Shown here one piece after another: positions 24,967 through 32,206 of a stretch of DNA of 64,000 bases (position 1 is its first letter; every line of letters starts with the position of its first letter). The notes under the pieces are model-generated. The model made no database searches, was not told where the DNA came from, and saw nothing but the letters and a program-made list of their open reading frames with translations. Position numbers and translations under genes: made by a program. Where the stretch lies: positions 1,675,837-1,739,836 of the forward strand of contig NZ_JH976535.1 of assembly GCF_000183545.2 (NCBI RefSeq). The letters run 5' to 3'. Origin of the DNA: Thermaerobacter subterraneus DSM 13965 (GTDB lineage Bacteria; Bacillota; Sulfobacillia; Thermaerobacterales; Thermaerobacteraceae).

Positions 24967-25938
24967 TCACCGCATCAAAGGATCACAGCCATGGACGGCC
25001 GCGGGCCCCGGCTCGACCTTCACCGCGGCCCCCGCCGGGGCCGCCCCAGGCGGCGCGGAACCGCCCGCGCCCGCATCCGCGCCCGCACCGGCCCCCTCGC
25101 CCGCCGCTGCTGCGGTGACGGCCGCCGGGGTGACCGTCCGGCCGGCGCGGCCTTGCCGGTAGACCCAGGCCGCCTCGACGAGCCCGGTGAAGATCCCCGC
25201 CAGGGCCGGTTCGTCCCGCCACAGCAGCTCGGGGTGGAACTGGACACCCAGGATGAAGGCCTCCCCTTCGCCCTCCACGGCCTCCACCACCCCGTCCTGG
25301 GCCCGGCCGCTGACCCGCAGCCCCCGGCCGGGCTGGCGCACCGCCGCCACGTGGAAGCTGTTGACGTGCACCCGGGTGCGGCCCCCCAGGCAGGCGGCGA
25401 GCCGGGAGCCGGGTTCGACCCAAAGGCCGTGACCTCGCCCGGCGCCCGGTTCCACCTGCAGGTGGGACCCCGGCGGGTGGACCCGGCGCGTCAGGGTCCC
25501 GCCCAGGAGCTCGTTGAGCGTCTGCATGCCGCGGCAGATGGCCAGCACGGGCATGGCCCGCCCCAGGGCACCCCGGAGCCAGACCACATCGGAATCATAG
25601 CGGTAGGGGGCCTGCTCGCGCAGCCCCGGCAGCGCCCGCAGCCCGGCAGGAAGGTACGGATAATTCCCGGGCACCACCAGGGCGTCGATGGACTCCAGCC
25701 AGGGGTCCACCGCCTCGCCCGGCCGCGCCACCGGCAGGATCACCGGGAGGCCGCCCGCGGCGGCCACGGCCTCCACGTACGTCATGGGCAGGACGGCCAC
25801 CAGCCGCGGGGGCGGCTCCCCGGTCCCGCAGGGACCGTGCCCCCCTGCGCCAGGTCCCGAAGGCAGCATGCCCCCGCCGGAACGGGCGGGGGCCATGAAG
25901 TCCACCGAGGCCGCGATGCCGATGACGGGCCTCGCCAT
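24967..25938 (-). CDS. Peptidase C26 / gamma-glutamyl-GABA hydrolase-like class I amidotransferase
   Basis: 323 aa. The nucleophile Cys is in LAICRGMQTLNELLGG, the His in ILGVQFHPELLWRDEPA, and the opening MARPVIGIAASVDF and DALVVPGNYPYLPAGL match PuuD-like hydrolases that split gamma-glutamyl amides. A Gly-rich loop of 25 residues at 17-42 and an Ala/Gly tail of about 55 residues are additions. Located between an ABC permease gene and an aldo/keto reductase on one strand, so it may act on the imported compound. The substrate is not predictable. Confidence 0.88.
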   Translation of the reverse strand: MARPVIGIAASVDFMAPARSGGGMLPSGPGAGGHGPCGTGEPPPRLVAVLPMTYVEAVAAAGGLPVILPVARPGEAVDPWLESIDALVVPGNYPYLPAGLRALPGLREQAPYRYDSDVVWLRGALGRAMPVLAICRGMQTLNELLGGTLTRRVHPPGSHLQVEPGAGRGHGLWVEPGSRLAACLGGRTRVHVNSFHVAAVRQPGRGLRVSGRAQDGVVEAVEGEGEAFILGVQFHPELLWRDEPALAGIFTGLVEAAWVYRQGRAGRTVTPAAVTAAAAGEGAGAGADAGAGGSAPPGAAPAGAAVKVEPGPAAVHGCDPLMR

Positions 25939-26040
25939 GGCTGCATCATCTCCCAGGATGACCGGTCCGCCTCACCCTGCGGACGGGACGGCCGGACGGC
26001 GCCACCCTGCGGATGGGCCGCCCGGCCTCACAGCCCGGCC

Positions 26041-27108
26041 TTACACCCGCAGCCGCGGGTCCAAGAGCTCCCTGAGCCCGTCGCCCAGGGTGTTGATCGC
26101 CAGCACCAGCACCAGCACCGCCAGCCCCGGCAGGGTCGACACCCACCAGGCGGTGCTCAGGTAGTCCCGGCCCTCGGCCACCATGGACCCCCAGGCCGGT
26201 ACGTCGGGCGGCACCCCGATGCCCAGGAAGCTCAGGGACGCCTCCATCAGGATCATGTGCCCGGCCCGCAGGGTGGCCACCACCAGCAGGGCGTGCAGGA
26301 TGTTGGGCAGGATCTCCCGCGCCAGGATGCCGGCGTGGCTGCGGCCGATGGCCCGGGCCGCCTCCACGTAGGGTTTCGCCTTCTCCGCCAGGACCTGGCC
26401 CCGGGCCACGCGGTAGAACTCCACCCAGGCCTTGAAGGTCAGGGCCAGGATCAGGTTGCCGATGCCCGGTCCCAGGATGCCCATCATCAGGATGGTGAAG
26501 AGCAGGTACGGGAAGGCCATCAAGAGGTCGGCCGCCCGGGAGAGCACCTGGTCCACCAGGCCTCCCGCGTAGCCCGCCACGGCCCCCAGCACCGAACCCA
26601 CCACCCCCGCCACGGTCACCGCCGTGGCACCGACCAGCAAGGACACCCGGGCACCGTAGAGCAGCCGGGTGAGAAGGTCGCGCCCCACCCGGTCGGTGCC
26701 CAGGAGGTGCTCGGGGTGGCCTCCCGGCAGGAAGGCCGGCGGGGCCAGGCGGGCGCTCAAGGTGAAGTCGTCGGGGTCGTAGGGCGCCAGCCACGGGGCG
26801 GCCACCGCCACCAGGACGAACAGGGCCACCACCGCCAGGCCCGCGGCCACCTGCGGGTGGCGCAATGCCCGTCGCCAGGGGTCCGCGGTGCCGGGCAGGG
26901 GAGCGGCTGCGGCACCAGCGTCGAGGCCCGGCGCCCCTTCCCCTGCCCCTCGCCCCGTCCCCGGGCCGGCCCCGGGATCGAGCCCGGGCCCGAGGCCCGG
27001 CCGGGCGGGCGACCCGGGCGCAGCGCGACCGGGAACGCCCTCGGGCTCCCGGGCCGCCGCCGGTTCGACCCACCGCAGTGCGGGCCGCCTTTTCCACGCA
27101 CCGTGCAT
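26041..27108 (-). CDS. Oligopeptide/nickel-type ABC transporter permease, DppC-like
   Basis: 355 aa; ATG 27108 with AGGAGGGG upstream. An N-terminal Pro/Gly/Ala-rich stretch of 75 residues is followed by the OppC leader helix, the HLLGTDRVGRDLLTRLLYGA block diagnostic of DppC/OppC/NikC, and the EAA loop YVEAARAIGRSHAGILAREI, ending with NTLGDGLRELLDPRLRV. Forms the channel with the DppB-like protein, whose gene ends 46 bp upstream. No ATPase gene is adjacent. Confidence 0.93.
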   Translation of the reverse strand: MHGAWKRRPALRWVEPAAAREPEGVPGRAAPGSPARPGLGPGLDPGAGPGTGRGAGEGAPGLDAGAAAAPLPGTADPWRRALRHPQVAAGLAVVALFVLVAVAAPWLAPYDPDDFTLSARLAPPAFLPGGHPEHLLGTDRVGRDLLTRLLYGARVSLLVGATAVTVAGVVGSVLGAVAGYAGGLVDQVLSRAADLLMAFPYLLFTILMMGILGPGIGNLILALTFKAWVEFYRVARGQVLAEKAKPYVEAARAIGRSHAGILAREILPNILHALLVVATLRAGHMILMEASLSFLGIGVPPDVPAWGSMVAEGRDYLSTAWWVSTLPGLAVLVLVLAINTLGDGLRELLDPRLRV

Positions 27109-27154
27109 CCGCTCCCCTCCTTTGCACGCAGGCCGCCGGCCCCGCCCGGAGCGC

Positions 27155-28174
27155 CTAGGCCTCCCGGATCCGCGGGTCCAGCCAGGTGTAGGCCAGGTCG
27201 ACCAGGAGGTTCATCACCAGGAAGGTCAGGGCGTAGACCATCACCGCCCCCTGGACCACCGGGTAGTCCCGGGCGAAGATCGCCTCGACCACCAGGCGGC
27301 CCAGACCCGGCCAGCCGAACACCGTCTCCACGATCATGTTGCCGCCCAGCAGCACGCCGGCCTGCAGGCCGACCACGCTGGCGGTGGGGATCAGGGCGTT
27401 GCGCAGGGCGTGGCGCAGGACCACCCGCCCTTCGGGGAGGCCCTTGGCCCGGGCCGTGCGGACGAACTCGGCCCCCATCACCTCCAGCATGCTGGAGCGG
27501 GTGACCCGGGCCACCACCGCCGCCAGCTCGGCCCCCAGGGTGACCGCCGGCAGCACCAGGTGGGCCAGCGCCGAGCGGAAGGCCGCCAGGTTCTTGGCCA
27601 GCAGGGTGTCCACCAGCAGGAAGCCGGTGTGCCAGGGCACCGTGCCGGCATACTGGGAGGCGATGCGGCCCGAGGTGGGCAGCCATCCCGTCCCCACGGC
27701 CAGCAGCAGGATCAGCACGATGCCGAGCCAGAAGGCCGGCATGGAGATCCCCAGGGAGGCGGTGGCCATGACCGCCCGGTCGAGCCAGGAGCCGCGGCGG
27801 GTGGCGGCCAGGACCCCCAGCGCCACCCCCGCCGCCACGGCGAAGGCCAGCGCGGCCAGGGCCAGCTCCACCGTGGCCGGCAAGGTGGCCAGCAGCACCT
27901 GGCCCACGGGCTGGCGGCTGCGGATGGACTCGCCCAGGTCGCCCCGGGCCAGATCGCCCACGAACCGGGCCAGCTGGACGGGCAGGGGCTGGTCCAGGCC
28001 CAGCTGGCGGGCCAGGGCCCGGGCCTCCGCCTCGCTGGAGGTGCCCCCGCCCCGCAGCATGATGTCCACGGGATCGCCGGGCATTATCCGCAGGAGGACG
28101 AAGCTCACCAGCACGATCCCCACCGCCAGCGGCAGGGCCATCAGCACCCTGCGCAACACCCACCCGCCGCGCAT
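27155..28174 (-). CDS. Oligopeptide/nickel-type ABC transporter permease, DppB-like
   Basis: 339 aa; the ATG at 28174 was chosen because GGAGGTGACC precedes it. Begins with a membrane helix and FVLLRIMPGDPVDIML, has LGISMPAFWLGIVLILLLAV, the EAA loop FVRTARAKGLPEGRVVLRHA and the family ending LLVDLAYTWLDPRIREA. Pairs with the DppC-like subunit; together they would move the ligand captured by the lipoprotein encoded 251 bp upstream. Confidence 0.94.
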   Translation of the reverse strand: MRGGWVLRRVLMALPLAVGIVLVSFVLLRIMPGDPVDIMLRGGGTSSEAEARALARQLGLDQPLPVQLARFVGDLARGDLGESIRSRQPVGQVLLATLPATVELALAALAFAVAAGVALGVLAATRRGSWLDRAVMATASLGISMPAFWLGIVLILLLAVGTGWLPTSGRIASQYAGTVPWHTGFLLVDTLLAKNLAAFRSALAHLVLPAVTLGAELAAVVARVTRSSMLEVMGAEFVRTARAKGLPEGRVVLRHALRNALIPTASVVGLQAGVLLGGNMIVETVFGWPGLGRLVVEAIFARDYPVVQGAVMVYALTFLVMNLLVDLAYTWLDPRIREA

Positions 28175-28425
28175 CCGGTCACCTCCCCGTCCCGTCACGG
28201 CCTGCGGCCACCGCGCTCCCGGGCCACCGCGCCCGCCGGCCGCCGCCCGCCAGCCGCCCCCATCCTGGCAACGGCAACCGCCGGCCGAGACCCCGTCCTG
28301 CACCGCCCCTGGGCCCTTCCCGTGCCTGCCCCTGCACCGCCCGGGCTCGCCGGTTCTTCCCCACGCGCCCCGGGCCCGCACACGTGCCGCAGGCCAGGCC
28401 GCGGCCCGGCGCCGGCCCCCGCCCG

Positions 28426-30048
28426 TCAATCGACCTTGTACCCCGCCTCCCGCAGCAGCTGCTTCGCCTTCTCCGGATCGTAGGGGTAGGGCTGGAGGCT
28501 CTCGTCGTAGCCGAAGCCGCTGGGCAGCAGCGCCGTGGCCACCCGGTGGGCGTGGCCCTTGTAGAGCTCCTTGAGGATCGCGTCCCAGTCGATGGCGTAG
28601 TTCAGCGCCTGCCGCACCCGGGGATCGGTGAGCACCTTGTTGTTCAGCTCGATCATGTAAAGCCGCGTGCCCTGGGTCACCTTGACCTGCACGTTGGGGT
28701 CCTTCTCCAGCTGGGCCACCAGGTCCGGCGGCACCTCCTGGATGATATGGACCTCACCGTTCTGCAGGGCGGCGATGCGGGTGGCCGGCTCGGGCATCAT
28801 GCGGAAGACCACCCGCTGGAGCTTGGCCGGCCCCACGGGCGGCAGGTCCGGCGAGCCGCCGTAGTAGTCGTCGAACCGCTCCAGGACGATCTGCCCGTCC
28901 AGGCTGCCCTCGACGAAGCGGAAGGGCCCCGCCCCCACGGGCTTGGCCGACAGGCCGGCACTGCCCACTTCCTCAACGTAGTCCTTGGGCACGATCTGCG
29001 TGTGCACCAGCAGCTGGACGAAGGCGGCCGACGGGTTGGCCAGCTTCATCCGCACCGTGTAGTCGTCGACCTTCTCGATGGACTCCAGCGGCTCCACCAG
29101 CCCCTTGCGCGGCGACGGCTGGCCGTCCAGGCCGTCTTCAGCCAGGATCCGCTGGAAGGTGAAGACCACGTCGTCGGCCGTCAGGTCCTCGCCGTTGTGG
29201 AACTTGATGCCCCGCCGGAGCTTGAACACGTACGTGGTCGGGTCGGGCTGTTCCCACGACTCGGCGATCTCGGGCACCACCCGGCCGTCGGGCGTCCGGG
29301 TGACCAGGCCGTCGTAGATGTTGCGGATCACCGTCTCGGTGTCCCGGTCGCGGTAGGCGGCGGGGTCCAGGGACAGGATCCGGTCGGCCCGCAACCCCAC
29401 CACCAGGGTGTCGCCGCCCTCCAGCTCCACGTCGTGCAGGTTGATCCGGCTGTCCATGGAGGGCTGCCAGTTCTTCACCCGGGCCGAGGCCGCCTCGATG
29501 GCGTCCAGGTAGTAGCCGAAGATCCAGGGGGCGTCTTCGTAAAGGATGGCCTGCGCCTTCTTATAGGCCTCCAGCGCCTTCGCCTCGTCGGTGGCGGCCG
29601 CCGCCTCCTTGAAGAGGGCGTCCACCTCCGGGTTGGAGTAGAAGGAGTAGTTGCCGCGACCGCCCGTCTCCAGCTTGGGCACCGCCAGGTCCACCGGGGT
29701 GAAGGTGGCGCTGCCCCAGTCGGTGGCGTAGGCCTGCCGGGTGCCCTTCTGGGCCTCGGCCACCAGGGTCTGGTACTCCCACACCCGCACCTGGGCGTCG
29801 ATGCCCACCTGCTTGAGGTACTGGGCGACGACCTGCAGCTCCGCCTCGCGGTTCTTCGCCCCGTCCAGGGTGATGCTCAGCACCTGCCCCTGGGACGAAC
29901 CGGCCTCGCCGCCCGCCTGCTCCTGGCCGCCGCCGGTGCAACCCGCGGCGGCCAGGAGCAGGACCAGGGCCACCGCCAGCGGGACCAGCCGGCCCAGGCG
30001 GTGGGGAGCGGCCCGCCGCCTGGGCCCCCGCCGGAACACACCCCTCAT
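28426..30048 (-). CDS. Family 5 ABC substrate-binding lipoprotein, apparently circularly permuted
   Basis: 540 aa; ATG 30048 with GGGAGG upstream. A lipoprotein signal ends at Cys37 (LAAAGC). Residues about 56-211 then match the C-terminal part of DppA/OppA proteins: NREAELQVVAQYLKQVGIDA, NYSFYSNPEVDALFKEAA, KKAQAILYEDAPWIFGYY, closing INLHDVELE. Residues about 213-540 match the normal beginning: TLVVGLRADRILSLDPAAY, IYDGLVTRTPDGRVVPEIAE, RRGIKFHNGEDLTADDVVFT, and end at YPYDPEKAKQLLREAGYKVD, precisely where the C-terminal part would normally follow. The gene is uninterrupted and well initiated, so this looks like a functional permutation. It lies upstream of dppB and dppC. Confidence 0.9.
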   Translation of the reverse strand: MRGVFRRGPRRRAAPHRLGRLVPLAVALVLLLAAAGCTGGGQEQAGGEAGSSQGQVLSITLDGAKNREAELQVVAQYLKQVGIDAQVRVWEYQTLVAEAQKGTRQAYATDWGSATFTPVDLAVPKLETGGRGNYSFYSNPEVDALFKEAAAATDEAKALEAYKKAQAILYEDAPWIFGYYLDAIEAASARVKNWQPSMDSRINLHDVELEGGDTLVVGLRADRILSLDPAAYRDRDTETVIRNIYDGLVTRTPDGRVVPEIAESWEQPDPTTYVFKLRRGIKFHNGEDLTADDVVFTFQRILAEDGLDGQPSPRKGLVEPLESIEKVDDYTVRMKLANPSAAFVQLLVHTQIVPKDYVEEVGSAGLSAKPVGAGPFRFVEGSLDGQIVLERFDDYYGGSPDLPPVGPAKLQRVVFRMMPEPATRIAALQNGEVHIIQEVPPDLVAQLEKDPNVQVKVTQGTRLYMIELNNKVLTDPRVRQALNYAIDWDAILKELYKGHAHRVATALLPSGFGYDESLQPYPYDPEKAKQLLREAGYKVD

Positions 30049-30192
30049 CCCGCCTCCCAGCACCAGTGTCTCCGGCCGCCGGCCCCGCCGGCCCGCCGGC
30101 CTGCACCCGCCGTCCATACGCCTCCCCCTTTCCCCGGGGGCGGGCGCCGCCCGCCCCCGGACCGGTTTCCCTTTGCCTTGCCTCTCCCACCG

Positions 30193-30651
30193 TCACGGCC
30201 CACCGGAAGGGTTGTCACCAGCGGCACTCCCGCCGCGGCCGGCCCGGACTCCGCCGCCCAGGGGCCGCACCGCGGCCGGAGCGGCCCCTTCCACCGGAGC
30301 CGGGGGTGTCACCTCCCGCACCGCCGCGGGCGGCGCCCCGGCCGGTTCGACCTCCAGATCCAGCAGAGGCCCGTACTGCTGGGTGCCGAAGACATCGGTC
30401 TCTCCCGGGCTTCCCGCCGGGCGGCGCCGCCGGACCGTGAACTTGATGGCCCGGGCGGGGTCAAAATGGACGAAACAGTACAGGCGGTCGGGGCCGATGC
30501 CCAGCAACCGGCAGAGGGCCTCCGGGGTCAGCCCGGGGCTCCGGCAGGCCCGCCGGTACGCCTCCTCCGACGGGAAGAGGATGTCGAAGGTGATCAGGTC
30601 GACGCCGGCATTCTTGCTCCGGATGGTGCTGGCCAGCTCACGCAGGCGCAT
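30193..30651 (-). CDS. DUF4387 protein, AtuA partner
   Basis: 152 aa from ATG 30651, with GGAGGG upstream; it overlaps the AtuA stop by 14 bp. Residues 1-100 are a DUF4387 domain: LRELASTIRSKNAGVDLITF, DILFPSEEAYRRA, then FVHFDPARAIKFTVRR and PGETDVFGTQQYGPLLDLEV. DUF4387 is regularly encoded next to AtuA (DUF1446) proteins and probably works with them on a hydroxy- or terpenoid-type acyl substrate, though no reaction is established. The last 45 residues are an Ala/Pro/Gly tail. Confidence 0.88.
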   Translation of the reverse strand: MRLRELASTIRSKNAGVDLITFDILFPSEEAYRRACRSPGLTPEALCRLLGIGPDRLYCFVHFDPARAIKFTVRRRRPAGSPGETDVFGTQQYGPLLDLEVEPAGAPPAAVREVTPPAPVEGAAPAAVRPLGGGVRAGRGGSAAGDNPSGGP

Positions 30652-32206
30652 GGCCGGATCCCTCCCTCCGGCCCGCCGGCCGGTGCCCCGGGCGGGCTCC
30701 CGGGCGCCCGGCCGCGGCCGGGCGGCTTGCCGCTCCCGCCCCCACGGGTTCCCGCCCACCGGCGGGAGTCGCCAGCGGACCGGGGACGGGGTGGGGGTCA
30801 GGGCCGCTGAGCCCCACCTGCTCCAGCACCGTGGGGAACCAGCTCAGGGGATCGTCCACGGGCACCACGTGGTTCAGCGTCCAGCGGTAGGCGGGCCGGG
30901 CCTCCAGGACCTCGTCGGTCATCAGGGCGGCCCGGCCGGCGGTCCCGGTCCGGCCCCCGATGCGGGCGTAGAAGAGCTGGCGGGCCGCCATGGTGCAGAT
31001 CTCGCGGCCCCGGTGCCGGTCGGGACAGACCACCTCGACCACCAGCCCCAGCTCGTGCCCGGGGCGGGGGTGGGGCTCCAGCTCCCCCATTACGCCGTTG
31101 CGGCCGTACACGTGGTAGAACAGTTCGTAACCGGCGGTTCCGTAACGCTCCGCCACCTTGCGCCGCGCCCAGGCGATGGCCTCGTCCACCCGGGCCACCA
31201 GCTCGGGATCGCGCAAGCCGGCCAGGGCGAGGAAGCGGGCGCCGGCCGGACCCGCCCCCTCGATCTTCACGGCATAGGTGCCGGCGGGCCGGAACCGGAA
31301 GCCGGTGACCCGGGTGCGGCGGCCGTCCAGCGCCTGGTAGACGCAGCCGCGCATATCCAGGACGCCTGCGGGCACGTGCTCGAAGAAGGGCGTGGCCCGC
31401 TCGTACAGGGCATGCCCGGCCAGCGAGGCCGGCGTGCACCGCTGATCCGGGTGCATGGGCTCCACCACCACCTCGCCGGGGCGCAGGGTGCCCAGCACGG
31501 ACTCCTTGGCCATGAAGGGCTCGGCGCAGAAAGAGGCGCATTCCAGCACCTTGCCGGCGTAGTAGGCGGTGGCTGGGGGCATGCCGCACCAGAGGGCGGC
31601 CGCCGCGAAGATGGCCGCATCGCTGGACCGGCCGCAAATCACCACGTCGGCCCCCGCGTCCAGGGCCGCGACGATGGGCTCCGCCCCCATGACCGCGACC
31701 GCCCGGGAGGTCCGGTCCAGATCGGCCGGGGCCAGGTCGGGCCGGCCGTCCAGCCCGCGGATGGCGACGCCCTGTTCCAGGAGGCGGCGCAGGCGTTCCA
31801 CGGGAACGTCCGAGTAGATCCGCGCCAGCCGGAAGGGCGGCAGGCCATGCCGGGCGGCGATGTCTTCCACCATCCCGGCGAACTGGTCGACCCCGCGCCG
31901 GGTGCCCGTATCCGACGCCGAGCCGATGATCAGCGGGATCCCTCGCCGGCGGGTTTCCACCAGCAGGATCTCCAGGTCGTGGTACTGCCAGGCCGGCGGG
32001 CTGGCCGGCTCGTCGGCGCCCAGCGGGTAGGGGCCGATGTCGCAGCTCCCGGAATCGGCCACCACGAAGTCCGGGTCCCGCTCGAGCCCCGCCAGGAAGC
32101 TCTCCTTCTCCAGGGGCGTAAACCCCAGATGCCCGGTGGGCGCCAGCAGCCGCACCTCTTCCCGCAGCCGCCCCTCTCTCCGGCGCACACCGGTGCCGGT
32201 CGTCAT
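30638..32206 (-). CDS. Acyclic terpene utilisation AtuA family protein (DUF1446)
   Basis: 522 aa; ATG 32206 with GAGGGGTGA at good spacing. Family features include FVVADSGSCDIGPYPLGAD, PLIIGSASDTGTRRGVDQFA, DVVICGRSSDAAIFAAAALW and FYHVYGRNGVMGELEP. AtuA was named from acyclic terpene catabolism in Pseudomonas; most homologues, like this one with a DUF4387 partner, are of unknown reaction. First gene of the leftward operon that continues with a peptide-type importer, a C26 hydrolase and an aldo/keto reductase. The last 55 residues are low complexity. Confidence 0.88.
   Translation of the reverse strand: MTTGTGVRRREGRLREEVRLLAPTGHLGFTPLEKESFLAGLERDPDFVVADSGSCDIGPYPLGADEPASPPAWQYHDLEILLVETRRRGIPLIIGSASDTGTRRGVDQFAGMVEDIAARHGLPPFRLARIYSDVPVERLRRLLEQGVAIRGLDGRPDLAPADLDRTSRAVAVMGAEPIVAALDAGADVVICGRSSDAAIFAAAALWCGMPPATAYYAGKVLECASFCAEPFMAKESVLGTLRPGEVVVEPMHPDQRCTPASLAGHALYERATPFFEHVPAGVLDMRGCVYQALDGRRTRVTGFRFRPAGTYAVKIEGAGPAGARFLALAGLRDPELVARVDEAIAWARRKVAERYGTAGYELFYHVYGRNGVMGELEPHPRPGHELGLVVEVVCPDRHRGREICTMAARQLFYARIGGRTGTAGRAALMTDEVLEARPAYRWTLNHVVPVDDPLSWFPTVLEQVGLSGPDPHPVPGPLATPAGGREPVGAGAASRPAAAGRPGARPGHRPAGRREGSGHAPA

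Follow-up and report, generated by a model that had tools for sequence, protein, structure and literature searches.

A circularly permuted family 5 solute-binding protein in Thermaerobacter subterraneus and its permuted relatives in Bacillota

In the present work, we describe a gene of Thermaerobacter subterraneus DSM 13965 whose product, here called P0002, is a solute-binding protein (SBP) of family 5 in which the two segments of the chain stand in swapped order. Every test agrees with the reading of the first-pass annotation, namely that this is a natural circular permutation. We consider it very probable that P0002 is a permuted cluster C SBP, cut at the loop that follows the KAKxLLxEAGY helix in the C-terminal lobe, that works as a flytrap receptor. 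A second permuted group, which the first-pass annotation had missed, is found in a different subfamily.

The gene and the order of its segments

The window, by which we mean the whole stretch of 64,000 nucleotides that was analysed, carries the gene as a minus-strand open reading frame, with its ATG at 30048 and its stop at 28426. These coordinates had been given correctly before, without the strand. The features of the gene and its surroundings are as follows.

24967..25938, minus strand: peptidase C26 / gamma-glutamyl-type hydrolase (PF07722), downstream
26041..27108, minus strand: DppC-type permease (PF00528 and OppC_N domains)
27155..28429, minus strand: DppB-type permease (PF00528 and BPD_transp_1_N domains)
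28426..30048, minus strand: circularly permuted family 5 SBP lipoprotein (P0002), 540 aa
28435..29415, minus strand: former N-terminal segment, residues 212-538, now trailing (from the PF00496, structure and L047 matches)
29419..29883, minus strand: former C-terminal segment, residues 56-210, now leading (from the structure and L047 matches)
29938..30048, minus strand: signal peptide and lipobox (LLLAAAG-C37), read directly from the sequence
30193..30759, minus strand: DUF4387 protein (PF14330), upstream
30638..32206, minus strand: AtuA-family protein (PF07287), upstream

The search of P0002 against PF00496 (SBP_bac_5) that had been proposed as a check gave a significant match of 305.8 bits (cut-off 32.4) in two stretches, the better of which places residues 257-538 on positions 2-279 of the 368 of the model. 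A single colinear alignment, named beforehand as the sign of an ordinary chain, was not obtained. In the best solved-structure match, 5u4o, chain positions 53-359 correspond to residues 222-537 of P0002 (1.8e-38) and positions 367-520 to residues 59-209 (5.7e-15). The same is seen in BLAST with L047, the closest colinear relative, residues 51-381 of which align with 210-538 (58% identity, 1e-144) and residues 383-536 with 57-210 (55% identity, 2e-55). These swapped matches are far beyond chance. Since its segments depart from the colinear N-to-C order of the family, P0002 is filed as a permuted variant of SBP_bac_5.

The chain is cut between the KAKxLLxEAGY helix and the strand that follows it. 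Colinear relatives read ...QLLQEAGV-KDLKVVIDT... at this site, while the permuted chains end with ...LLREAGYKVD and start, past the signal peptide and a short linker, with ...VLSITLDG...; P0002 itself stops two residues past 538, just behind the LLREAGY helix. The old termini are joined with almost no linker (...SRINLHDVELE-GG-DTLVVGL...). Residue 537 corresponds to mature DppA 340 (1dpe), which, with the lobe boundaries that we take to apply, puts the cut in the C-terminal lobe.

The gene had been credited with a good start and lipobox. The lipobox is as described (LLLAAAGC, residues 30-37), and the orthologues have signal peptides as well. The start, on the other hand, is ambiguous from the sequence, as a second ATG at 30117, preceded by a good Shine-Dalgarno-like AAAGGGGGAGG, competes with that at 30048; it would give a protein of 563 aa with a 59-residue leader ahead of the lipobox cysteine.

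Whether a locus is permuted or colinear, DppB- and DppC-type permease genes come after the SBP gene, usually with two ATPase genes behind them; in the window, too, the two permease genes come after the SBP gene. Because both kinds of locus share the order SBP-DppB-DppC(-DppD-DppF), the permuted gene holds the ancestral operon position. Read from its first start codon, the DppB-type frame overlaps the SBP stop, and its true start is probably further inside. Adjacent DppD/DppF ATPase genes are lacking in the genus of the window (here at positions 26041-30048) and in some relatives (L034, L035, L199 and L200), in which these loci differ from most. Genes for AtuA, DUF4387 and C26-type hydrolase proteins recur near the Dpp-type operon, both at permuted loci (positions 24967-32206 of the window, L037, L040, L190) and at colinear ones (L049, L052), and these neighbours may point to the ligand of the SBP.

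Each match was classified either by one alignment crossing the junction or by half-domains in C-then-N order. In this way 63 permuted frames were collected, 48 of them distinct and near complete. The proposed search for orthologues found the same order in the genus, the family and the class: it is present in each of the three congeners that the genome set contains (89-96% identity) and is kept in the next genus (83%). A permuted SBP is encoded by 30 of the 154 genomes of the class sample, a P0002-like gene in 24 and a second type in 6 others. The first permuted type is found in 24 of 398 genomes of an even sample of the phylum. Outside Bacillota the contig scan gave no permuted form, the matches assigned to other phyla being colinear. 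In the order of Moorella just one of 22 genomes has the first permuted type, which suggests that the gene was transferred horizontally there.

Three divergent permuted family 5 SBPs (L119, L120 and L121; 35-45% identity to P0002) form long branches whose position in the tree is uncertain, and no DppB/DppC gene turned up in the stretches examined around L120 and L121. L050, which at first impression spanned the junction, is colinear.

Predicted fold, ligand and lipid tether

The AlphaFold2 model of P0002 has a mean pLDDT of 83 and a pTM of 0.79, with runs under 50 confined to residues 1-52. Foldseek aligns it over ca 345-365 columns with family 5 structures, a span to be expected when a sequential program meets a permuted chain, and one that does not establish the fold as a whole. 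The colinear control, L047, reached a pLDDT of 54 from too shallow an alignment and was left out. Homology and the confident model make a two-lobed flytrap fold probable. In the mechanism that we propose, the permuted chain would fold into the normal two-lobed flytrap, dock on the neighbouring DppB/DppC permease and hand over its ligand like its colinear relatives, while the signal peptide and lipid tether would emerge from the lobe in which the middle of the chain normally lies. A transport role is predicted from homology and operon context, and since the operon position is kept, the permuted proteins are most likely ordinary flytrap receptors.

To discuss the ligand, the two groups of permuted proteins have to be considered separately. 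Group A is the main one, to which P0002 belongs, and group B (L031, L028, L147, L149, L150 and L151) belongs to a DppA-like subfamily; L146 and L148 were also counted with this second set. The charges of the dipeptide are bound in E. coli DppA by R383 and D436 (precursor numbering; PMC12136057), and both positions fall in the segment that has moved to the front. As in DppA, both residues are present in all five group B permuted proteins aligned, on the basis of which group B is predicted to bind dipeptides. They are absent from P0002 and from the aligned group A proteins, permuted or colinear, for which a ligand other than dipeptides is predicted. Because the site region WG[SN]xxxDP...RGNYSxYSNP is common to group A and its colinear sisters, the permutation probably left the ligand class unchanged.

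We now consider why the termini moved. One explanation is that the permutation was selected because it attaches the lipid anchor to a different lobe. The recurrent use of one loop is consistent with this, as is the finding that about 30 of the 48 permuted proteins resemble lipoproteins, and an anchoring advantage has been proposed for Tp0684 (PMC4990184). However, about 18 of the 48 have a signal peptide without a lipobox, so relocation of the anchor cannot explain everything, and it may just be at this loop that the chain best tolerates a cut. We therefore regard selection for a new tether position as rather unlikely, although it keeps some weight.

Number of permutations and ancestry of the gene

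Groups A and B have the identical order and the identical cut, after ...LLxEAGY. Group B branches within a set of colinear relatives of its own, the nearest of which are L152-L154, and L031 is 69% and 62% identical to colinear L152 in its two halves. A tree constrained to keep every permuted protein in one clade is worse by 754 log-likelihood units (p-AU 1e-8). With the single clade thus rejected, the sequences support at least two independent permutations at the same loop.

The shared breakpoint could also reflect one ancient permutation, with the pattern of the tree arising from later reversions to colinear order. Reversions are possible in principle, and scattered branches inside A or B can be read in this way. 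Against this stand the AU result and the fact that A and B belong to different subfamilies separated by many colinear lineages, such that many reversions would be required. This scenario is accordingly quite improbable.

Independent permutation may have occurred more often than the two groups indicate. The joining of L026 to group A has a p-AU of 0.006, and the scatter of group B, which bears on whether that group has more than one origin, a p-AU of 0.015; both tests were picked with the tree already known, and the branches concerned are short. These results hint at further origins. We give about even chances to the proposal that in related Bacillota family 5 SBPs have been permuted at this same loop on at least three occasions (in A, in L026 and in B, possibly repeatedly). 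If so, the loop would be an evolutionary hot spot for chain termini and tether, both of which could move to the other lobe without loss of ligand or permease partners.

It is also relevant whether the two segments come from one gene. In the careful combined tree, the colinear Bacillota proteins L047, L141 and L142 are the sister of group A; a quicker tree left this fork open. Trees built from each half alone, N-half or C-half, place group A beside these three proteins. As both half-trees give the same neighbours, the two halves derive from one ancestral gene, which was permuted and not assembled from two. The nearest colinear relatives of P0002 are 55-58% identical across both halves. The alternative, in which the C-half of one SBP paralogue was fused ahead of the N-half of another, has possible donors in the several colinear family 5 SBPs of the same genome; it is contradicted by the concordant half-trees and by the 58% and 55% identity of the halves to a single protein, which leaves it very improbable.

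For the permutation of one gene, we consider a route in two steps plausible and the simplest. The SBP gene would first undergo tandem duplication with in-frame fusion, after which two pieces would be lost, namely the last C-half and, behind the signal peptide, the first N-half. Duplication with a new internal start would by itself not permute a secreted protein, because the signal peptide must stay. A fused duplication intermediate was not found, only a tandem colinear pair in a relative. A candidate fused frame of 1083 aa in G495 did not recur in the stretch itself, where two distinct colinear genes of 514-515 aa stand in tandem. This pair (L205:3593-6841, minus strand) consists of DppA-like SBP genes of the group B family that lie head to tail, an arrangement from which a permutation could start.

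Finally, the view that the order is an assembly, annotation or frameshift artefact, or that the gene is decaying, finds a foothold in the permuted orthologue at L023/L039, which is interrupted by a TAG codon in frame (through local decay or a sequencing error), and is refuted by intact permuted frames in dozens of independent assemblies and by purifying selection on both halves (dN/dS ca 0.15 in each), so that we attach practically no weight to it. Measured against close relatives, dN/dS is 0.14-0.17, and the halves do not differ. The sources of the permuted frames include single-contig genomes, the complete genome of Candidatus Fermentithermobacillus carboniphilus and the isolate Moorella mulderi DSM 14980. 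The earlier judgement that an assembly artefact is unlikely is thus borne out by the same order in congeners and in many independent assemblies; the sign named beforehand of an assembly fault, a rearranged sequence with colinear homologues in the species, did not appear, the orthologues of the genus, the family and the class sharing the permuted order.

Comparison with known systems

The canonical family 5 or cluster C SBPs (DppA, OppA, AppA, GsiB and NikA; PF00496) are homologous to the permuted proteins over both halves and have the secretion signal and the DppB/DppC partners in common with them. They differ in the order of the segments and in the location of the termini, which lie in the N-terminal lobe of canonical SBPs and, in the permuted ones, at a loop within the C-terminal lobe. 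L047, L141 and L142 are the closest point of reference, with the same operon order as the permuted loci (SBP-DppB-DppC-ATPase-ATPase) but normal segment order and a continuous EAGV-KDLKVVIDT at the site of the cut in the permuted proteins.

The solved-structure matches listed for P0002, by sequence and by fold, are family 5 type proteins, and no PDB chain of permuted order is among them. The first-pass annotation knew of no permuted binding protein of this family. As far as family 5 or cluster C is concerned this holds in the freely accessible literature, where we found none, and among the cases that CIRPIN (PMC12667903) mentions none is periplasmic or from an ABC transporter. What had been overlooked is a precedent with a different fold, the circularly permuted cluster B glucose-binding protein Tp0684 (MglB-2) of Treponema pallidum, for which the class 'Type Ic / Cluster Bc' was proposed (PMC4990184).

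The usual basis for proposing a natural circular permutation is a single pair of distantly related folds. Here, permuted and colinear proteins that are 55-69% identical occupy the same operon position, and nature thereby offers an experiment on the importance of chain order, hinge connectivity and tether position for the receptors of ABC importers. The recurrent loop makes both the route of permutation and its selective cause testable. It is worth pointing out that annotation by partial domains conceals such proteins.

Cluster Bc SBPs are found mainly in treponemes and Gram-positives and are mostly tethered (PMC4990184). Tp0684 and the present proteins are thus alike in being naturally permuted, mostly tethered SBPs of ABC importers. 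Tp0684 has, however, the Type I / cluster B sugar-binding fold, another cut site, an extra hinge crossing and an unrelated sequence, whereas P0002 matches only PF00496, and the permuted family 5 proteins belong to the cluster C fold class, with at least two independent origins supported by the tree. By analogy, they would be the cluster C counterpart of Tp0684, and the cluster B case would then be repeated in a second SBP fold class.
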